From Polychytrium aggregatum (Eukaryota > Chytridiomycota > Chytridiomycetes > Polychytriales): DNA of 64,000 nucleotides. Below the pieces are notes generated by a model that worked only from the letters and a program-made list of their open reading frames with translations, had not been told where the DNA came from and ran no database searches. Within the stretch, counting starts at the first letter, position 1. Each line of letters opens with the position of its first letter. Below are positions 44,639-58,342 of the stretch, in pieces. The stretch covers positions 806,001-870,000 of the forward strand of contig NW_026516211.1 in NCBI RefSeq assembly GCF_025602895.1. Direction: 5' to 3'. A program made the translations under genes and the position numbers.

Positions 44639-47600
44639 TTATGCGCTGGCGGAGGATGGCTCGGACTCGGTGATGAGCGCATCTTGGACCGGCAAGTGTC
44701 CGTTGGTTTGGCTGTTCGGAGCATCGGTCGCTTCTCCGTCCGCCTTTTCGGCCTCGTCGGCGGGAGCATCACGAACTTCATCTGCCGGGATGCCGGTTGG
44801 AGCTTCCGTGGGCTTGCCGTTCACCATCGCCGGATCGGCCTCGGATTTCTGGCCGGATGTGACCTCAGCAAGCACAGTTGCGGTAGCTTCGGCGGCATGC
44901 TCCCCACCAGTCTGTCCGGCGGTGACGATTTGCAGGCCGGCGGCAGGTTTGGCGGCCTTGTCGCCCTTGGTGGACTTGTGGCCATTATTGATCGACTCGG
45001 CCGACGCCGCGACAGCCTCAGCATGCTCTTCGCTCTCCAGCTGGACCAGACGGGCTCGGAGCTGGGACGACAGGGCTTCGCAGCACTCGGCCATCTTCTG
45101 GATGGCCTGCTTAGAGAGCGAGTGTCCGTTTCGGATTGCCGTTTGGTAGTACTCCATTGCCTTGCTGGGATCGGCGTCGGTGCCCTTGCCGCTGGCGTAG
45201 CAGGTTCCGAGCGCCTCACAGGCCACAGCGGACCCGCCCTTCGCCGCCATTTCGAACCAGTGGACACCCTCGGCTTCGTCTTTGTCGACACCCATGCCCC
45301 ATCGATACATGCATCCAACTTGGTACTGTGCGTTGCTATCGCCTTGCTTGCCAGCCATAAGGTAGTACTGCAGCGCCAACTTGGAGTCAATCGAGCAGCC
45401 ATCGAGTCCGTGGGTGTAGTTTGAGGCCAGCTGAAGCTGGGCTTCGACGCTTCCACCTTTTGCTGCAAGTTCGAGGTAGCGCTGGATTACGCTTTGGTCT
45501 TGGTCGCCTTCGGCCGCAAGCATCTTGAGAAGTTTGGCTGTCAGGTAGTACTCCAGCGGTGAGCGGGGGTGTCGCTCGGATTCGGCCAGCCACTTCCGCG
45601 CCTGCTCCTTGGCCGCCTCAGATCCGTCGCGAGCCAGATCCAGGCCGAGCTCGATCTGGGCACGCGCACATCCATCGGCGGCGCTCTTCTGGATCATCGC
45701 TTTGGATCGGCCCACGTCCTGATCGAGGCCGTTGCTTCCAGACTTGAACGCAAGCCCGATCTTGCATGTGTGCTCGGCAAGCAGCAGCCGCACGTCTTGG
45801 TCAACATACTTGACCGCCATCTTGAAATCCGCGTGATCGAGGGTGACGACGGCATCTCTGTACCGCCCCGAGGCAAGCTGGAGGCCAACCAAGTTACTCA
45901 TCTTGCGGTGGTTGATAAGGCTGTTGCGAACCGAGTAGATGAACGGCTGATCGGCAAGATGTCTCCATCGGACATCACGCACTCGACCAAAGGCGTCTTC
46001 GTAGGGCTTGGCCTGTGTGCACCATGTCCCTTCAAAGTATGCCACGAGTCTCCGGCAGACCATGATCTGGCGCCCTTCCGTGAGATAGCGATGTGCCACA
46101 AACGAGTGGAACTCTGGGTCGCGGATGCACAGGACTCGGGTGCGGTCAAACATTCGCTGGATGAAGTATCTGTGGTCGACACAATTCGGAATCAGTGCCG
46201 TATCAGAGCAAGGCCGTGAGTGTGAAGGATACTATGTGTTTCGGTTGGCACCGTTGGCGGAAACTGCCGCAACGAATGCAAAGCAGGGCGAGGAGATCCG
46301 CTTTCCACACAGCGCACTTGTTGGCGATAAGCACATCCATCGAGTCCCAAACTGCAGCACACGCTATCAACTGCACAGCGGCATCCGACTGATACTCACG
46401 GCTCCATGTCGCTAATAAACCGGAAGAGTATCACTTGCGGGATACGGCAGACCCGCGGGAATGAGTTCTGCGGTAGCATTTGCGAGTGTCAGCACAAAAA
46501 ACGCTGCCACGATCTGTCCCCCGCTGAAAGCGCAGTGGCGCCAATCGCTGCAGGCATCGCAGTGAATGGCCTCTTCTAGCATGTATGTGCACGAGGGAAT
46601 CCGCTCTACCTACCTTGTAGACGTCGTTCAGCACCCGATCGTCACACGACAGTAGGTCCTCGAGCTCGATGACAGAGAGACCTCGTTTCGCGACCGCAAG
46701 ATAGGACAGCGTGCGCATCACAAATGTCGATCCATACTTGTCTTCCATGCGCCGCAAGATATCGCCCATGAGATTCGATGCGGAGGCGGGCAGTGTCGGC
46801 TCAAGATCGGCAGACCGTTGGTTCGACTGCCACTGGCTAGCGATCTCCCAGATTCCTCGGATGTATTGTCCCGTCGTGTTCGTTTGGCAGTGCTTTCGCA
46901 ACAGCTCGACTTGCTCGTCGGTCAAGTCTCGCCCGGACTGGTCCTTAAGATACCCAATGATGGCATCGGTGTCGAAATCGACGAGGAGACTCTTGCCCTC
47001 CGCCGTCTGCGTCGCAGCTTTTCCTTTTCGATCCGAGCTGGCCTGACTTAGAATGAGCGTTGCATGTGGTGGTAGAGTCTTGGGGATCCAAACGCGCGCT
47101 TGGTCTTGGTTCGTAGCATACACGTTGTCAAGGCAGCCGACGACAATGACGATTGGCCGCTCCTCTGTAGCTGTCTTTAGACACTCGACAAAAGCTTCGC
47201 TGAGATCTTCTAGGCTGTCTGGAAGGCCGGTGCTGTCATCGCTGTTGCACATGCGTATTTGTGAGCATATGGAGCGGAGAAGTAGAGGGAGCGTTCGGCT
47301 CGACATGGTGAGTCCGCCGAATCGATAAACGATGAGCGGGGCTGGATTGGAGGTCAGAGAGATGTCGTGGATGCATTTTGCAACAAAGCAAGCCGTTTCG
47401 AATCCATCGGGACCTGTTTTAGAAGGAACCAAGGTCGAGTGAGCAATTTTGTCGGAGCTGGGTACGCTTCGCAGATTCCGATGACCGACTTGAGGGCCAG
47501 TGACTCTCTGCACTGAGCCAGGATGAGGAGCGAAAGTGAGAGTGAAGGTGAAAGCGCTCACCATAAACCCACAGGGGCGTGTTTGTTGTGCTCTCGGATA

Positions 47601-49887
47601 TATGCTGCCCCACGGTATCAACATTCGAAGCTCCAACGCCAATGTACGATGCACAGAGCTCGGTTGCATATGACCGGTGGACGGCCACCTCGGCAATGAG
47701 CGGGTCGTTCAATAAGAGCTGGCGCTGTCCCATCAGTTGGTGCCGCTGGATGATGGTGGTGCACAAAAGCTCGGATAGCTCGTCGCAGAAGGTTCGCAGG
47801 TAGATGGCTTGCTCCGGGTCGGTGCGTGGATCGAATCCGACGTCGTCGAGACGCAGGTGAGTGGTGTACGTTGATGTGAAGGGAACGCGCTCTCGAAGAT
47901 CGTAGATGCGCTGGCGAGCTTCCTCGTCGATGATCATGTCGCGGCTGTTGCCTCGCAACTTGGTGTCAAAGTACGTATTCATGACGACGGGATGGCTGAA
48001 GAGAGGGCTGTCGAAGCCAGAGAGGGAGCGCCTGGACATACATGGAGCGGAATGAATAGGTGCCTAAGCAGGGATGCTCGAATCTCTGGTCAAGCACGAA
48101 CCAGTGCTCGGAGAGCATGCAAATGCCCGAATCGCGGGCCCAGGATCACATCCCACATCCCAACAAGGAGCACCGTTTCGTTTGCGGCCGACCCATTGGC
48201 ATCAAGGGATACTTTGTCAATACAGCTTATGACTTACTGGAAGCAAAAGAAGCGCTTGGAGATTTCCTTCTCGACATCTTCTTCCTCCATGTTCTCCAGT
48301 CCATCGAGGGAATGAAACGCCGCCTTGAAGATCTCCTTCTCGAGCGATGAAACAAAGTACTTGCGCTCGTCGCGCACCGTAAGACACAGCGCACCCTCGC
48401 GCAGAACCGTTACCAGTCGCGGAGAGACTGTCTTCCATTCATCCAGGGCCATTTTCCACGCCCTCTCACCGGCCGGCGGAGGCGACAGTGGGGATGCAGG
48501 CGAGTCCTGAGGCCGGTTGACGTTGAGTGCCGCCCCGACTCGCTGCAGGACATAGCGTCCTGGACGGCAGTTTTTATCCTTGATGTACCATTGCATCAGC
48601 AGATGGTAGTCGCCGCGGCGGTCTCCGTCTGGAGATACTCCGACATCGCGCAAATACATCAGCATGTTTTCAAATTCCTCGGCGTCGATCGTTCGGGGTG
48701 GAGGGCGAGATCCACACTTGTCACCTATGACAAACCGTTCACACAACTCGCGCGAGTCAGCTTCATTCATATGATGGCCACAGTCAGATATGCTCACCGT
48801 CCGAGCTGCGCCAAAATGAACGACCGCGGCCGGAATCGCCAGTGATGCGCTCGCGACTCACGGCAGGCAGCAGAGAGATGCGATCGTCTCGAGCCTAGCC
48901 TGCTTGACCCTGCTCATGGCCATCCTTCACTCTCAACATACCCAGCAAGGCGACGTAGGCTGGCCCCGCAGAAAGCTGGAAGCATCGGCTGATCTCGTTC
49001 AGACAAAACTCCTCCTGCATATGGTCATCGAAGAGACCGTCATCGGCACCCCAGCGTCTGAGAGAGAATCGAACGCGTGGATTGTGGATTAGTCCGTCGT
49101 ATGGTCTTCCATGATTGAATATCGAGTGGTCTTTCCAAAGAATCCAGCCGCGTTCGGATCCCGCTCGCCCAGCCCGACGCTGATTCTGGATGCGTTGGCA
49201 CAGACATACAGATCGATGACGTGGAGCTCCATTCCGATCTGGTGGCATAATTGGCGCACGAATGGATAGACGTCGGTCATGAGGACAGAGCGCTCCCACT
49301 CGGTATCTGGCGGAGGGATAGCCACATCGACTCGGTTAGCCACGGGCCTTTGTGGAGCTGGAGTGTCCGTGGTGGCACTCGGAATGCAGCTGCGATTGCA
49401 GGGCCGGGGGATGCTACACTCAGCTTGATGCGAAGCAGTATCAGCGTCGGACTGCGACGGACGAACCTGATCCAGCACACGAAACGAAGATGCGAAAGGT
49501 GGTCTTCTCTTCGTCCAGGACCTCAGCGAGATCGACGCCCATGAGCTTGGTCAGCATCTTGGACTTGGCCATGATCGGAACGTCCTCGACATCGCCCATA
49601 GATGTCGCGTAACAATCCTCGGCATCGCCCAGGAAGCGCTCGCAGGAACGGCGGTTGGAGCGGGGCTCTGGGCCCCATAGATCGAGACCGTGACTCTGCG
49701 GGACGCTGCTGAGGGCGATGGATCCCAGGACAAATGGCAAACGGTCGCCGTCAGAGGTGAGAGCGCCATCCAAATAGGCACCGGTTTCTCTCCGGAGGAA
49801 GGCCGACGGTGGCGGTCGCGGAAACTCGGCCATGGAGGGCGGACGCCGCAGCTGGAGCCGGGATCGGTGGGGGTGGTCATCGGTCAT
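44639..49887 (-). CDS. Large DUF4062 / NACHT-like / Sel1-repeat protein (NPHP3/NWD1-type), degenerate P-loop
   Basis: Exons on the minus strand join into one protein of roughly 1,500 residues. The N-terminus at 49887 leads to FRIFVS and the DUF4062 signature DTEWERSVLMTDVYPFVRQL, then MELHVIDL spliced to RWGADDGLFDDHMQ and FCLNEISRCFQLSAGPAYVA. Next comes YFVSSLEKEIFKAAFHSL, then the NACHT-like region, where TPLWVYG is best spliced to GPDGFETACFVAKCIHDISL in the Walker A position, followed by PIVIVVGCLDNVY (Walker B position), LPPHATLILSQAS and IELEDLLSCDDRVLNDVYK. A winged-helix-like exon (VCRIPQVILFRFISDMEP) connects to the last exons with several Sel1/TPR-like repeats (AAKGGSVEAQLQLASNYTHG, GDSNAQYQVGCMYRWGMGV, GGSAVACEALGTCYASGKG) and an acidic Ala-rich tail. 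NPHP3 and NWD1 share this plan. The NTP-binding Lys-Ser is lost. Confidence 0.72.
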
Positions 49888-53985: not shown

Positions 53986-54552
53986 AGCTGGCACTGCATG
54001 CGAATACGGCTGGAGCCTCCGATGTGCCTGAGTCGGGCGTCAAACCGGTGTGAGCGGGTCTCGGGGCTGAAGGAGAAGGGCACTGAATATCAGCGCAACT
54101 GTCCTCGAGAACGGGCGCCGGTATCGAGGCGATGCTTGGTGCGGCAAGTGCAGGATCGGGTGATGCCTCCGCCCAACAGAGCATCGATATATTTGAGGCG
54201 AAAATCATACACGCTCCTCTGTCACAGTTTGCCCGGTGATCGACCGAGCGCAGACACTCGCTGGTGGGGCATCAATCAAAGTTAGGGAACGGCGCCATCG
54301 CAAGCGGGATTGGACCACGGGTGATGTCACTTGCCAATCTCGCACCCCCCTGACAGATTCTGCACCAGGGCCGAATGCATCCGCCCGCTTTTGCCGTCGA
54401 TTACAGAGCAAGTCAATGGCTGATTCTCAGGAACCCGCTTCTGTTCCAGTCCAGACTGCGCCAGCCCATCCGCTCTGCACGCAGGACCTTGGCAGTGCCG
54501 CTATCACTCTTGTGCATCCTGCTTGTCGTCCGGGACTGAATCGCCCGAGATT
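53986..54552. other. Channel-gene upstream region left of the transposon
   Basis: No firm gene. A possible extra 5' exon of the channel lies on the minus strand (54208-54000). A short plus-strand frame from 54417 has no family motif. TA at 54551-54552 is the left target-site duplication. Confidence 0.45.
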
Positions 54553-54580
54553 ACAGGCGATCCAATAAAAAACGGGACAC
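54553..54580 (+). repeat. Left terminal inverted repeat of the Fanzor transposon
   Basis: Starts CAGGCGATCCAAT and ends A6CGGGACACC; pairs with 58041-58068. The first 28 bases of the deleted copy at 31404 match it at 25 positions, fixing the boundary. Confidence 0.9.
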
Positions 54581-54653
54581 CCGTGTTTTTGACCATTCAT
54601 CGAATATTTTGTTACCCAATGTTATCGCGCGCTGGCCATGACCATTCGCCAGT

Positions 54654-55412
54654 GTGTCCAAGAGCACCATCCATCGATGGCACCGAGGATGCAAGCTGGA
54701 TGACCCATCCCGGGTCCCAGCTCGCAGATCCACTTTCTTCGAGCAGGCATGTCCAGTCATTCGCACCCTGATTGAACAGGACCCGTTCCAGACTGGTCCT
54801 GTGTTGCGATGCAAGCTCGAGTCCATCCTCCAGAGGAAAGTTTCACTCTCACTCTGCCACACTGCCATCCACCGAGCAGGTCTCTCACACAAGAGGGCAA
54901 CACACCTCTACAAGTCCAAGCGACTGGATGAGCGAGTGGCACAGTTCAGGGACCAGGCCCGCTCCATCGACCCGCGGCGATTCGTTTTTGTCGATGAGAC
55001 AGGGTTCAGGAGATCCATTTTCCCTCTTTACGGATACTCGCCGAAGGGCGTCCCACTCCGTCAGCGCAATCACATGAAGCACAAGTCTGTCTCGGCTGCA
55101 TTTGCCATCAACCACTCTGGTGTGCTGCATCGCATGTACATCCCCACATCATTCAAGACACACTCGATGGTCGAGTTCTTTGAGCGAGCGAGCTTCCCAG
55201 ACGACTCTGTGATTGTGATGGACAATGTCAGCATGCACAAGACAATGGCTGTCCTGGACTGCATCGAGCGCCGAGGATGGTCAGTGATCTTCACCCCACC
55301 TGCCTCGCCCGACTTCAATCCCATCGAGAACTTCTTTGGGGTTGAGTTCCTCCAATTTGGGGTTGAGCTCCCCAATCACGCCGCCATTTTCACGCTCAAA
55401 TCCCTGGCTTGA
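54654..55412 (+). CDS. Tc1/mariner (DDE_3, DD34E) transposase, N-terminally truncated
   Basis: About 250 codons remain. The frame opens in the middle of the helix-turn-helix (SKSTIHRWH) and is closed by a TGA just upstream, so no ATG serves it. About 50 bp present in the deleted copy (encoding SLRRIASIFNV) is missing here. The catalytic core is complete: first D in FVFVDETGFRRS, second D in SVIVMDNVSMHK, and E in PDFNPIENFF exactly 34 residues after the second D. Downstream of the E a ~20-bp tandem duplication (TTTGGGGTTGAG twice, 55334-55368) precedes an early stop, so the C-terminus is shorter than usual. It is probably inactive unless an upstream exon or non-ATG start restores the DNA-binding domain. 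Confidence 0.85.
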   Translation: MSKSTIHRWHRGCKLDDPSRVPARRSTFFEQACPVIRTLIEQDPFQTGPVLRCKLESILQRKVSLSLCHTAIHRAGLSHKRATHLYKSKRLDERVAQFRDQARSIDPRRFVFVDETGFRRSIFPLYGYSPKGVPLRQRNHMKHKSVSAAFAINHSGVLHRMYIPTSFKTHSMVEFFERASFPDDSVIVMDNVSMHKTMAVLDCIERRGWSVIFTPPASPDFNPIENFFGVEFLQFGVELPNHAAIFTLKSLA

Positions 55413-55492
55413 ACCTCTCGGCGATTTTTGAACAGGTCGCTTCCCCAACCAGCCCGCGCAGACGGGCTCCTGCTCTCGGGTATAAATGCCAC

Positions 55493-55498
55493 ACCTTC
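55493..55498 (+). promoter_or_regulatory. TATA box of the Fanzor gene
   Basis: TATAAA in GGGTATAAATG, 118 bp before the ATG at 55616 and downstream of the transposase stop, so the nuclease gene seems to have its own promoter. Confidence 0.65.
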
Positions 55499-55615
55499 GT
55501 CCTGCTGCTTTCTTCCCTCATCTCGCCTTGATCTGATCATCGCGCCATTGTACGATAAAGAGAAGTCTCTGCTCTGACCAGTACCACTGGCAGGCATCCA
55601 GCACCCTCCGCCCTC

Positions 55616-57970
55616 ATGCCTCCGAAGCGCAAGGGCGGCCCCTCTCGGCCACCCAAGCCCAAACGCACCACAACCAAGTCCACTCCACCCACTCCTCCTC
55701 CTGTGCCCGCACCCACACCCACCGAGCTTCCTGTCGAGTCGATGGATGTCGACACCACCGACCCCGGTCCCTCGAGCAGCACTGCTGCTGCTGCTACGAC
55801 GGCCACTGGTCCTGTCTGTGCTTCATGCCAGCTCCCAGGTCACTCTCGGGCTTCGAGCAAGGCTTGTCCCAAATACCGGCCCCTCAAGAGCTCCGTCGTC
55901 CCACTCGTGGATGGAAGGTCATCGGCCCCTCAGTTCAGCTGCTTCAAGCAGACGATGGATGGCTGTTGTCTCAATCCCGCTCTCCGCGACAAGATCCAGG
56001 CCACCGTCGAGGCCATGACCCAGATCCAGTTCGAGGCATCCAGGCTGCTCAACCTGCACATCCTCCGGTGCATCGAGCAGGATCTTCCCGTCCCCGTCAT
56101 CTCCAAGTCCACCCCTGCTTTCATCCGCCAATGCTTCACGATCGTCGAGGCCGATGCCCTCTCGATGGCCAGGGACACCAAGAAATACAACGAGCATCTG
56201 GTCGCTTCCTTTCGCGACTATCAGACCACTCGGCACGCAGACCTGCCTCCGGCCCCTCGTCTGCCTGGTGGTGCTCACAGTCAGCTTCTCACACTGGCTG
56301 TCAATGCCTATGCCACCAACTGCACCACCCACCTCGACCTGGCCTACTGGCGACTCCTTCGCCGCTTCTGTGCTGCTGTCTTCCCAGCCAACAAGCACAA
56401 GCACGAAGCCATCGAGGCCTGTCTCGAGCTCTTCGAGAAACCAGGGCAGACTCCACCCAAGGCCGATCTCGAGTTCCTCTATCCAGACTTTGGCCACGTC
56501 CTGGACGAGTTTCGGTACAGCAACGACCAGGACCGCTTCCGGGCCCTCCATCGCCTCTCACACCATGTGGGAATCCTCGCCCGAGACAAGATGGTCGACA
56601 ATGTCCACAAGTGGATCGACTGTGACATGCCCGCCCTCCGAGTCACCGAGCTGCAGCGCCAGGCCAAGCTGGACAAGCTCACTGCCCGAGGCATTCCCTC
56701 CGACGACAAGAGGTTCACCAACGCCAAGTCGGAGCTCGGCACCACCAAGTCCAAGATCAACAAGCTGGCATCCAGACTCAAGTGGGCCCTCAAGCAGCTC
56801 GCTCTGGACACTCCTCCGGCCGTGTGCACGATGGTTCCTCTATGCCCTGCAAGGGCCAAGTATGTCAAGATCGACACGGTCACTCTTTGGAATCTCCTTG
56901 ACACCGAACATCGTCTTGGACTCACCAGGGACATGCTCAAGGATGAAGGTGATGACGGTGTCAACAACCAGGATCGTCTCTGGCGCAGTTGCTTCAAGCT
57001 GCGTAATTCCCTCTTCCAAGAACGGGACGTGAACAAGAAGCTGTTCAACTACGAGATCAGCACCGATGGCATTGGATGCACCATCGGTCTCGTCAAGTTT
57101 CTGCCTCGAACCGATCACACCGAGACCATCGAGCCTCCTCCGACTGCCGAGCAGCGCATCCAGGCCCACATCGGCGACCCAGACCCCGACAAGACCACTT
57201 GGATTGGCATCGATCCTGGAGTCGGCTCCATCTTCACGGCGGTCATCCAAGCACCGGGCCACCAAGACGAGGTGGTCTCATTCTCGAATGGTCACTATCA
57301 GCACATGTGTGGCCATACGTCCAACACCAAGTGGCACAACACCATGAAGTATCGACTCAGCATCGAGACCTGGATGTCGACCACCCCCTCGCCCAAGGTG
57401 TCGTCCTCGGAGGCTTTCAAGGTCCATCTCACCCATGTCCTGCGACCGGAGCTGCGAGTGCAGCTCGACTTCCACTTTGGCAAGAAGGCCCGTCACCATC
57501 GCTTCACGGGCCACAAGAGGCGCCAAGTGGCCGTCGACAGGATGTGCAAGGCCGTCCTGAGGCACGCCCCGATACGGACCGATGTGGTGATCGCCTTTGG
57601 CAATGCGTCATGGCGGCAAGGCAAGGGCTATGCATCCAGCCCTCGGAGGCAGCGGTTTGCTCGGTACTTTGAGCAGTTCGAGCACCACCGCCGCCGTCCC
57701 AATCACCATCATGGAAGCGTCAAGGTAGTCTCGACGAACGAGTTCAACACCTCGCAAGTGTGCTCCAAGTGCCTGGAGCCAGTTCGGTTGGAAGGACTCG
57801 ATGCGCCCAGTGTTGCGAATTCCCACTTTGTCAAGAGCTGCAAGAATCCCAGCTGCCTGACAGTGTGGAATCGCGACGTCAATGCGGCGCGCAACATGAT
57901 CGCAGTATGCAGGTCGATTGTGGAGATCGGAGAGCGACCGGCGGTCTTCACTCGGAGGCTGCCAAAGTGA
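55616..57970 (+). CDS. Fanzor (eukaryotic TnpB-like RNA-guided nuclease), intact, single exon
   Basis: 784 residues without introns. Residues 1-60 are basic/proline-rich (MPPKRKGGPSRPPKPKRTTT), a likely nuclear signal. A C-x2-C-x4-H-x6-C zinc knuckle follows (CASCQLPGHSR..CP, about 68-86). The middle is helical. The RuvC core is at the C-terminus: GIDPGVGSIFTAVI with the first catalytic Asp at 533; KKARHHRFTGHKRRQVAVDR; VVIAFGNASWRQGKG, where TnpB has its Glu block; STNEFNTSQ with Glu 709; the zinc ribbon C716/C719 and C742/C747; and NRDVNAARNM with the last Asp at 754. The T-S-x-x-C-x-x-C and N-R-D-x-N-A-A-R-N motifs define the TnpB/Fanzor family. Fanzors of zoosporic fungi cut DNA guided by an RNA transcribed from the element's 3' end. 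The single exon, in a genome of multi-exon genes, fits transposon cargo. Confidence 0.95.
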   Translation: MPPKRKGGPSRPPKPKRTTTKSTPPTPPPVPAPTPTELPVESMDVDTTDPGPSSSTAAAATTATGPVCASCQLPGHSRASSKACPKYRPLKSSVVPLVDGRSSAPQFSCFKQTMDGCCLNPALRDKIQATVEAMTQIQFEASRLLNLHILRCIEQDLPVPVISKSTPAFIRQCFTIVEADALSMARDTKKYNEHLVASFRDYQTTRHADLPPAPRLPGGAHSQLLTLAVNAYATNCTTHLDLAYWRLLRRFCAAVFPANKHKHEAIEACLELFEKPGQTPPKADLEFLYPDFGHVLDEFRYSNDQDRFRALHRLSHHVGILARDKMVDNVHKWIDCDMPALRVTELQRQAKLDKLTARGIPSDDKRFTNAKSELGTTKSKINKLASRLKWALKQLALDTPPAVCTMVPLCPARAKYVKIDTVTLWNLLDTEHRLGLTRDMLKDEGDDGVNNQDRLWRSCFKLRNSLFQERDVNKKLFNYEISTDGIGCTIGLVKFLPRTDHTETIEPPPTAEQRIQAHIGDPDPDKTTWIGIDPGVGSIFTAVIQAPGHQDEVVSFSNGHYQHMCGHTSNTKWHNTMKYRLSIETWMSTTPSPKVSSSEAFKVHLTHVLRPELRVQLDFHFGKKARHHRFTGHKRRQVAVDRMCKAVLRHAPIRTDVVIAFGNASWRQGKGYASSPRRQRFARYFEQFEHHRRRPNHHHGSVKVVSTNEFNTSQVCSKCLEPVRLEGLDAPSVANSHFVKSCKNPSCLTVWNRDVNAARNMIAVCRSIVEIGERPAVFTRRLPK

Positions 57971-58040
57971 TCTGTTTTATTTCTTGTGGCTTTGCTTGAC
58001 GCAAGCACAGCACATACTACATGTTCATGGAAACGGCTGT
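57909..58040 (+). ncRNA. Candidate omega/guide-RNA region at the Fanzor 3' end
   Basis: Inference from conservation. The last ~60 coding bases plus the stop (57909-57977) are nearly identical in the deleted copy (31598-31665), although the left end of the two copies has diverged more. A hairpin can form: GACC 57936-57939, loop GGC, GGTC 57943-57946, flanked by GAG/CTC. TnpB and Fanzor guide RNAs come from this part of their elements, overlapping the gene's 3' end, with the guide taken from sequence beyond the terminus. The exact RNA ends cannot be read. Confidence 0.5.
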
Positions 58041-58068
58041 GGTGTCCCGTTTTTTTCTGAATAAAGTG
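58041..58068 (-). repeat. Right terminal inverted repeat of the Fanzor transposon
   Basis: GGTGTCCCGT7 followed by CTGAATAAAGTG, inverted relative to 54553-54580, immediately followed by TA. Confidence 0.9.
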
Positions 58069-58342
58069 TAGGCCGCCTGAAGGACTCTGTTTGTGTCGCT
58101 GAGACAGAGGGCTGCGCTTGCATCCGCGCCTGACTCATTGGATGCGGCGTTTGTTGGCTTTCCCGCGCGGTGCTGGCGGGCGGGTTCAAAAGCCCACCCC
58201 CGCCCCGAGCGATTCATTGTCCCTCCAACGCTTTCTTTCTGCCAGGATCTCTTTGGCTGCGACCCACGCTGTGCCTTCTCTTCCTCCCGGTCCATCCCAC
58301 TTCAAAGTTGCGCCCATCGAACGACCGTCAACAGCAAACACC

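Follow-up and report, generated by a model that had tools for sequence, protein, structure and literature searches.

The analyzed stretch, hereafter the window, comprises 64,000 nucleotides of Polychytrium aggregatum (GCF_025602895.1, contig NW_026516211.1, positions 806,001–870,000 of the forward strand), and all coordinates given below are those of the window unless a contig is named. Between positions 54552 and 58070 it carries a Tc1/mariner-type transposon in which a broken transposase gene lies beside an uninterrupted gene for a Fanzor, i.e., an RNA-guided DNA-cutting enzyme. The features of this element, including its predicted guide RNA (omegaRNA) and predicted target-adjacent motif (TAM), are as follows:

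54550–54553, plus strand: target context ATTA, i.e., flanking A and T followed by the left TA (predicted TAM, WTTA; T at position −1 in 191 of 199 exact left ends)
54552–54579, plus strand: left terminal inverted repeat including the TA duplication (21/28 match to the right end)
54638–55412, plus strand: broken Tc1/mariner (DDE_3, DD34E) transposase (PF13358, E = 1.3e-21; deletions of ~77 bp near 54649 and ~133 bp near 55355)
55616–57970, plus strand: uninterrupted Fanzor gene, an ATG-started frame of 784 aa
55817–55867, plus strand: N-terminal zinc-knuckle-like CxxCx4Hx7C, by pattern match only
57062–57070, plus strand: TDG motif, the Fanzor1 WED domain signature (motif as defined in PMC10711439)
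57212–57220, plus strand: RuvC-I DPG motif with the catalytic Asp (motif match to the published definition)
57740–57772, plus strand: alternative catalytic Glu, six residues before the first zinc CxxC (ExxxxxxCxxC, published definition)
57839–57877, plus strand: second zinc pair and last catalytic Asp (CKNPSC...NRD), aligning to SpuFz1
57963–58070, plus strand: predicted omegaRNA scaffold of gene end, 3' noncoding stretch and right end (low diversity; placed by analogy to SpuFz1; fold weak and covariation not supportive)
58043–58070, minus strand: right terminal inverted repeat including the TA duplication (comparison of the ends)
58071–58085, plus strand: predicted 15-nt guide in the host flank past the right TA, placed from SpuFz1-type guides, which reach 14–15 nt beyond the scaffold

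A sequence-only reading of the window had described a complete Tc1/mariner-type transposon with an intact Fanzor gene, and the features on which it relied were all recovered, i.e., TA on both sides (54552–54553 and 58069–58070), 28-bp ends with 21 matching positions, a DD34E core plus the 784-residue frame, with the correction that 54551 (T) is flanking DNA and the duplicated TA begins at 54552. The transposon type is supported by the inverted ends, the TA duplication, the DDE_3 domain returned by a Pfam search of the transposase frame and the spacing of 34 residues between the second Asp and the Glu. The element is not complete: relative to longer copies of the same family, the ~77-bp deletion lies near the start of the transposase gene and the ~133-bp deletion at its end, the frame from the ATG at 54638 stops after 21 codons (by-eye reading), and the remnant frame measures 256 aa versus 325 aa in the longer copies. 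The window copy is a transposase-dead, not an intact autonomous, element. Transposase deletions of several kinds recur across copies in varying combinations, which suggests recombination among copies.

The Fanzor protein returned a Pfam match to the Cas12f1-like TNB/zinc ribbon domain (PF07282, E = 1.3e-8, 35.3 bits against a cut-off of 26.3). It carries the Fanzor fingerprint which, like the TDG motif, was taken from PMC10711439, namely DPG at RuvC-I (aa 533–535), an alternative Glu six residues before the zinc CxxC (EFNTSQVCSKC, aa 709–719) and the zinc pair, the second of which is CxxxxC; TDG lies in the WED domain at aa 483–485. The predicted model, whose mean predicted local distance difference test score (pLDDT) over the whole protein is 46, appears to reproduce part of the Fanzor1 REC/WED fold, and solved Fanzor1 structures occupied the top five rows when this low-confidence model was compared by fold. 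By motif and partial predicted fold, the protein thus appears to fall with Fanzor1. A protein search returned two matches among 7,376 candidates, both of them pieces inside P. aggregatum gene models (one covering 16% of the query at 65% identity, the other 19% at 52%), while an alignment query found no Fanzor homologue among 8,000 scored candidates; on this basis the earlier suggestion of an undescribed lineage is plausible, and no description of this Polychytrium Fanzor-transposon family was found in the open-access literature searched. Two P. aggregatum gene models, P0001 and P0002, contain Fanzor fragments of a related family (B), 94–95% identical to a copy in the genome analyzed here; one is named a male sterility protein and one has an F-box Pfam domain, and either exon capture or mis-annotation may be responsible. 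This identity points to P. aggregatum or a close relative as the host; a search with a neighboring gene gave seven weak matches, none named Polychytrium.

The family to which the window copy belongs, designated family A, is large. Its left-end pattern, with up to two mismatches, matched the genome 392 times (duplicate contigs included) versus 0 for the reversed control, and a search with the whole element, in which 40 of 1,228 candidates were scored, yielded 116 aligned pieces, the long pieces being mostly 91–97% identical. The genome search proposed by the sequence-only reading found abundant copies, and neither a lone copy of a protein outside Fanzor/TnpB nor a gene-bearing allele without the TA-flanked structure was encountered. 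Flanks in common between contigs indicate that many contigs are duplicates or haplotypes, so that copies outnumber insertion sites and all copy counts given here are inflated. The forty copies that were fetched (L009–L048, L009 being the window copy; numbers with C denote contigs) are the best matches to the whole window element, and large Fanzor deletions are under-sampled among them. Their left ends read TACAGG or variants thereof, and their right ends GTGTA in 38 of 40 copies, the exceptions being L024 (GGGTA) and L039 (GTGTG). Of 40 right ends taken from a pattern match, 26 could be paired by hand with a listed left end (14 remained unpaired); of these pairs, 22 span 3.5–3.8 kb and four span 0.3–1.1 kb; the longest copies measure ~3.74 kb, many have the 325-aa transposase frame, and the Fanzor frame is typically 809 aa from stop to stop. 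The N-terminal part of the window Fanzor (55616–55880), with its basic stretch and zinc-knuckle-like motif, is unlike that of five other aligned copies, and its in-frame indels are common to L020 only among the forty.

Compared to a majority-base reference, 32 of the 40 copies retain an intact Fanzor core (698 aa) and 14 an intact transposase. Eleven copies have both intact, 21 the Fanzor alone, three the transposase alone and five neither, Fanzor integrity being independent of that of the transposase (p = 1.0; 40 copies). No Fanzor-core deletion of at least 20 bp was found in these copies, chosen as they were by similarity to the whole window element. Across 19 full-length copies, four distinct lesions fall in 2.09 kb of Fanzor versus eight in 0.93 kb of transposase (p = 0.011), four of the latter eight sitting in one copy, L026. 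Fanzor core variants present in at least four copies (91 synonymous, 74 not) are biased to synonymous change, with a non-synonymous to synonymous ratio (w) of 0.32 for transitions and 0.27 for transversions, compared to 0.65 and 0.58 for private variants; the corresponding Fanzor core values are 0.39/0.30 in the 15 copies whose transposase has a 3' deletion. Gene conversion among copies would blur such estimates.

Insertion of family A occurs in an oriented WTTA context. Immediately ahead of the left TA, 39 of the 40 fetched copies have a T, as do 191 of 199 exact left ends across the genome; the corresponding share among TA sites elsewhere in the window is 12.5%, and the eight non-T copies represent six distinct sites by flank sequence. 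One base further out, 40 of 46 distinct left flanks carry A or T, the window copy (ATTA) fits the pattern, and no comparable bias was seen by eye at left −3 to −10 or right +1 to +10. The fair counts of T are the two given above, the flank table leaving out seven chosen non-T flanks (L051–L057); its 45/46, together with the associated Fisher test, is inflated because 13 left flanks were picked from the T list. Unfilled paralogous sequence runs across the junction at two sites, i.e., those of L011 (gag-like repeat C399/C384, 87%) and L023 (family B copies, 75–79%). The gag-like unfilled copy reads CA in place of TA and already has the T before the site, so the T belongs to the target. A search for PF03184, a pogo-type control for TA choice, gave no match, but with the control genomes equally without one this does not show absence. 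According to PMC3627910 and PMC10432273, the Spizellomyces element SPu-1 has a conserved CA before the left repeat and a tested TAM of CATA; since CA at the same position joins TA to form that motif, WTTA is the predicted TAM of the window-family Fanzor.

The 3' noncoding stretch downstream of the Fanzor gene varies little. Its diversity is 0.0155 without the last 30 bp (0.024 with them), whereas the intergenic region has 0.051 and the four-fold sites of Fanzor 0.076; within the Fanzor gene, the last 270 bp show a four-fold diversity of ~0.034 and the other intervals 0.036–0.18. Four short family A derivatives of three structures keep 168–449 bp of the right end, a short family B element keeps ~530 bp of it, and the gene end plus 3' stretch is kept in six of eight fetched loci of family E. 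In Fanzor1 RNAs as reported in PMC10711439, the predicted scaffold takes in the terminal repeat as well as the target duplication, and the guide of the window copy is accordingly predicted at 58071–58085. Further related families (B, D/E) are represented by L049, L050, L095–L098 and L112–L119, some members being short and keeping the Fanzor gene end and 3' stretch. Furthermore, L106/L107 (C96:12150–16650), a rearranged and frameshifted copy, joins a transposase with 96% DNA identity to family A to a family B Fanzor gene whose product is 37% identical to the window protein, which suggests module exchange between families.

The reading we favor, with a probability of roughly 55%, is that the window element is a transposase-dead copy of a large Tc1/mariner-Fanzor1 family in which an omegaRNA-guided Fanzor cuts the empty site and repair restores the element. 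An omegaRNA would be transcribed from the region between the Fanzor stop and the right end and extend ~15 nt into host DNA; Fanzor and omegaRNA would cut the empty site (WTTA plus guide) that excision leaves behind, and repair using a filled copy would keep the element at its site. An inserted copy would escape cutting because its right junction reads GTGTA, not WTTA. The window copy would move only with transposase supplied by intact copies, and could itself supply Fanzor to others. A further proposal, which we regard as unlikely, is that Fanzor cutting has left a genome-wide footprint in the strict WTTA orientation of family A, wrongly oriented copies having been lost and only insertions with TAM and guide in their empty site having been re-copied after excision; if true, different residents at one site would reflect break-driven copying, and Fanzor would have a demonstrable role in the retention of a DDE transposon.

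A number of results weigh against the cutting-and-repair reading. No allelic empty site was found among 21 joined sites (best 40 of 451 candidates), and homing was not seen. Three of four sequences have weak predicted RNA folds (z of −0.5, −1.4, −1.5 and −2.9 for the four), covariation across 22 A and three D right ends gave a single both-sided change (C-G to T-A, in L092 only), and many pairs of the predicted A structure are broken or without partner in the D right ends. The transposase remnant of the 15 copies with a 3' deletion gave a w of 0.21/0.94 from few changes, so that Fanzor selection independent of the transposase cannot be shown. In the profile search, LaTranC, a TnpB-related protein, scores between SpuFz1 and GtFz1. 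Finally, of 43 exact ends of family E no more than 27 have T at position −1, an upper bound drawn from exact cores only (100 of 163 matches, with three-mismatch rows up to contig C100), and the four E sites with both ends readable have T left of the RNA in L112, right of it in L113/L114 and L117, and on neither side in L115. A T flank on either side of the RNA means that a landing preference is possible without fixed orientation, and the transposase may be its source.

The family E data lead to a tenable alternative, to which we give somewhat less than even odds, whereby the transposase alone prefers WTTA and unequal ends fix the orientation, while Fanzor, active or not, leaves no trace in landing. 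Family E is short, some members have the same repeat at both ends, and its T flanks behave as for unguided preference; all four Fanzor-less derivatives of family A likewise have T before TA. However, a symmetric target preference should enrich A after the right TA, which was found in 11 of 50 right flanks (one of the 50, L078, misparsed) versus 39 of 40 for T on the left, T is commoner in family A than in family E (p = 1.9e-8), and in SpuFz1 the flanking CA is part of the TAM. The stricter orientation in family A may derive from unequal ends or from Fanzor selection.

The window insertion is also present on a second contig, as L020 (C7:84420–87901). Flanks differ by one mismatch in 985 bp, while the residents differ at 132 of 3,347 sites, by large indels and by different transposase deletions, and the closest other fetched Fanzor half is ~7% away from the window copy; a recent insertion, as had been proposed, is therefore not supported. 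Five pairs share flanks (0–5 mismatches in ~960–985 bp) with residents 38–132 substitutions apart, or 38–120 in the four besides the window pair. Each member of three of the five pairs (L025/L045, L038/L043 and L042/L047) has, for at least one half, a non-allelic copy that resembles it no less closely than its partner does, and the same applies to the transposase half of the window pair. At another site L040 (C223:383611–387211), of 3,606 bp, has as its counterpart a ~0.3-kb derivative, L111 (C156:29180–29720). Either gene conversion or an assembly error could account for different residents at one site. For at least 11 of the 21 joined sites, half of the site is matched on a second contig and the match ends close to the junction, which is what a filled second contig would give; both halves were seen at three such sites (C136, C279 and C156). 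L042/L047 (C99, C402) have the left flank and element in common and diverge past an adjoining family B piece, possibly through a chimeric contig or recombination.

Copy number and same-site differences might partly be assembly artefacts, i.e., duplicate contigs and mixed consensus in a high-copy repeat. Contig pairs with the same flanks are indeed common, and paired elements differ little near their ends and more in the interior; yet there are dozens of distinct flank sequences, the window pair has Fanzor indels in common that are absent from the rest of the forty, and the 0.3-kb derivative is bounded by both flanks within 541 bp, which makes this explanation somewhat unlikely. That Fanzor is a passive passenger in a decaying family, no longer working, is very improbable, since its core, although broken in eight of 40 copies, shows a w of ~0.3 for variants in at least four copies and rarer lesions per kb than the transposase. 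Elsewhere in the window, neighboring minus-strand frames (44642–46153 and 46434–47669) carry Sel1 repeats and an NWD1-type winged helix.

Among known systems, TnpB (IS200/IS605, IS607) resembles the window Fanzor in its RuvC nuclease and zinc ribbon, and shares the right-end guide RNA logic, whereas DPG with the alternative Glu, the DDE transposase partner and the eukaryotic genome set the window Fanzor apart. SpuFz1 of SPu-1 (Spizellomyces punctatus) is its best sequence and fold match. According to PMC3627910 and PMC10432273, the SpuFz1 omegaRNA consists of a ~75-nt scaffold from the right end plus 14–15 nt of flanking sequence, and the right end is retained at ghost loci that lack the protein; the window family is alike in being a Fanzor1 element with TA duplications, a conserved dinucleotide before the left repeat, a conserved stretch between stop codon and right repeat, and short ghost relatives. 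In the same accounts, SPu-1 measures ~2.1 kb with no transposase found inside its repeats, whereas the window family encodes its own DD34E transposase; WT precedes TA in place of CA, 392 left-end matches compare to 42 Fanzor and 134 ghost loci, and the N-terminal zinc-knuckle-like motif is unlike SPu-1. PGv-1 and PUl-1, compared by their description in PMC3627910, likewise combine a mariner-like transposase and Fanzor1 in one TA-flanked element, although PGv-1 is described there as single-copy whereas the window family is multicopy. According to PMC10432273, what Fanzors do biologically is not known. Many copies of the window family retain transposase and Fanzor next to each other, and the family falls into natural classes (copies with both genes intact, transposase-dead copies, and short derivatives keeping the right end); with a specific testable TAM (WTTA) and many natural guides, it would permit a direct test of whether Fanzor aids the persistence of a DDE transposon. 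The Fanzor1-Tc1/mariner combination itself is already known, and the window family is a further member with an unusually informative set of copies.
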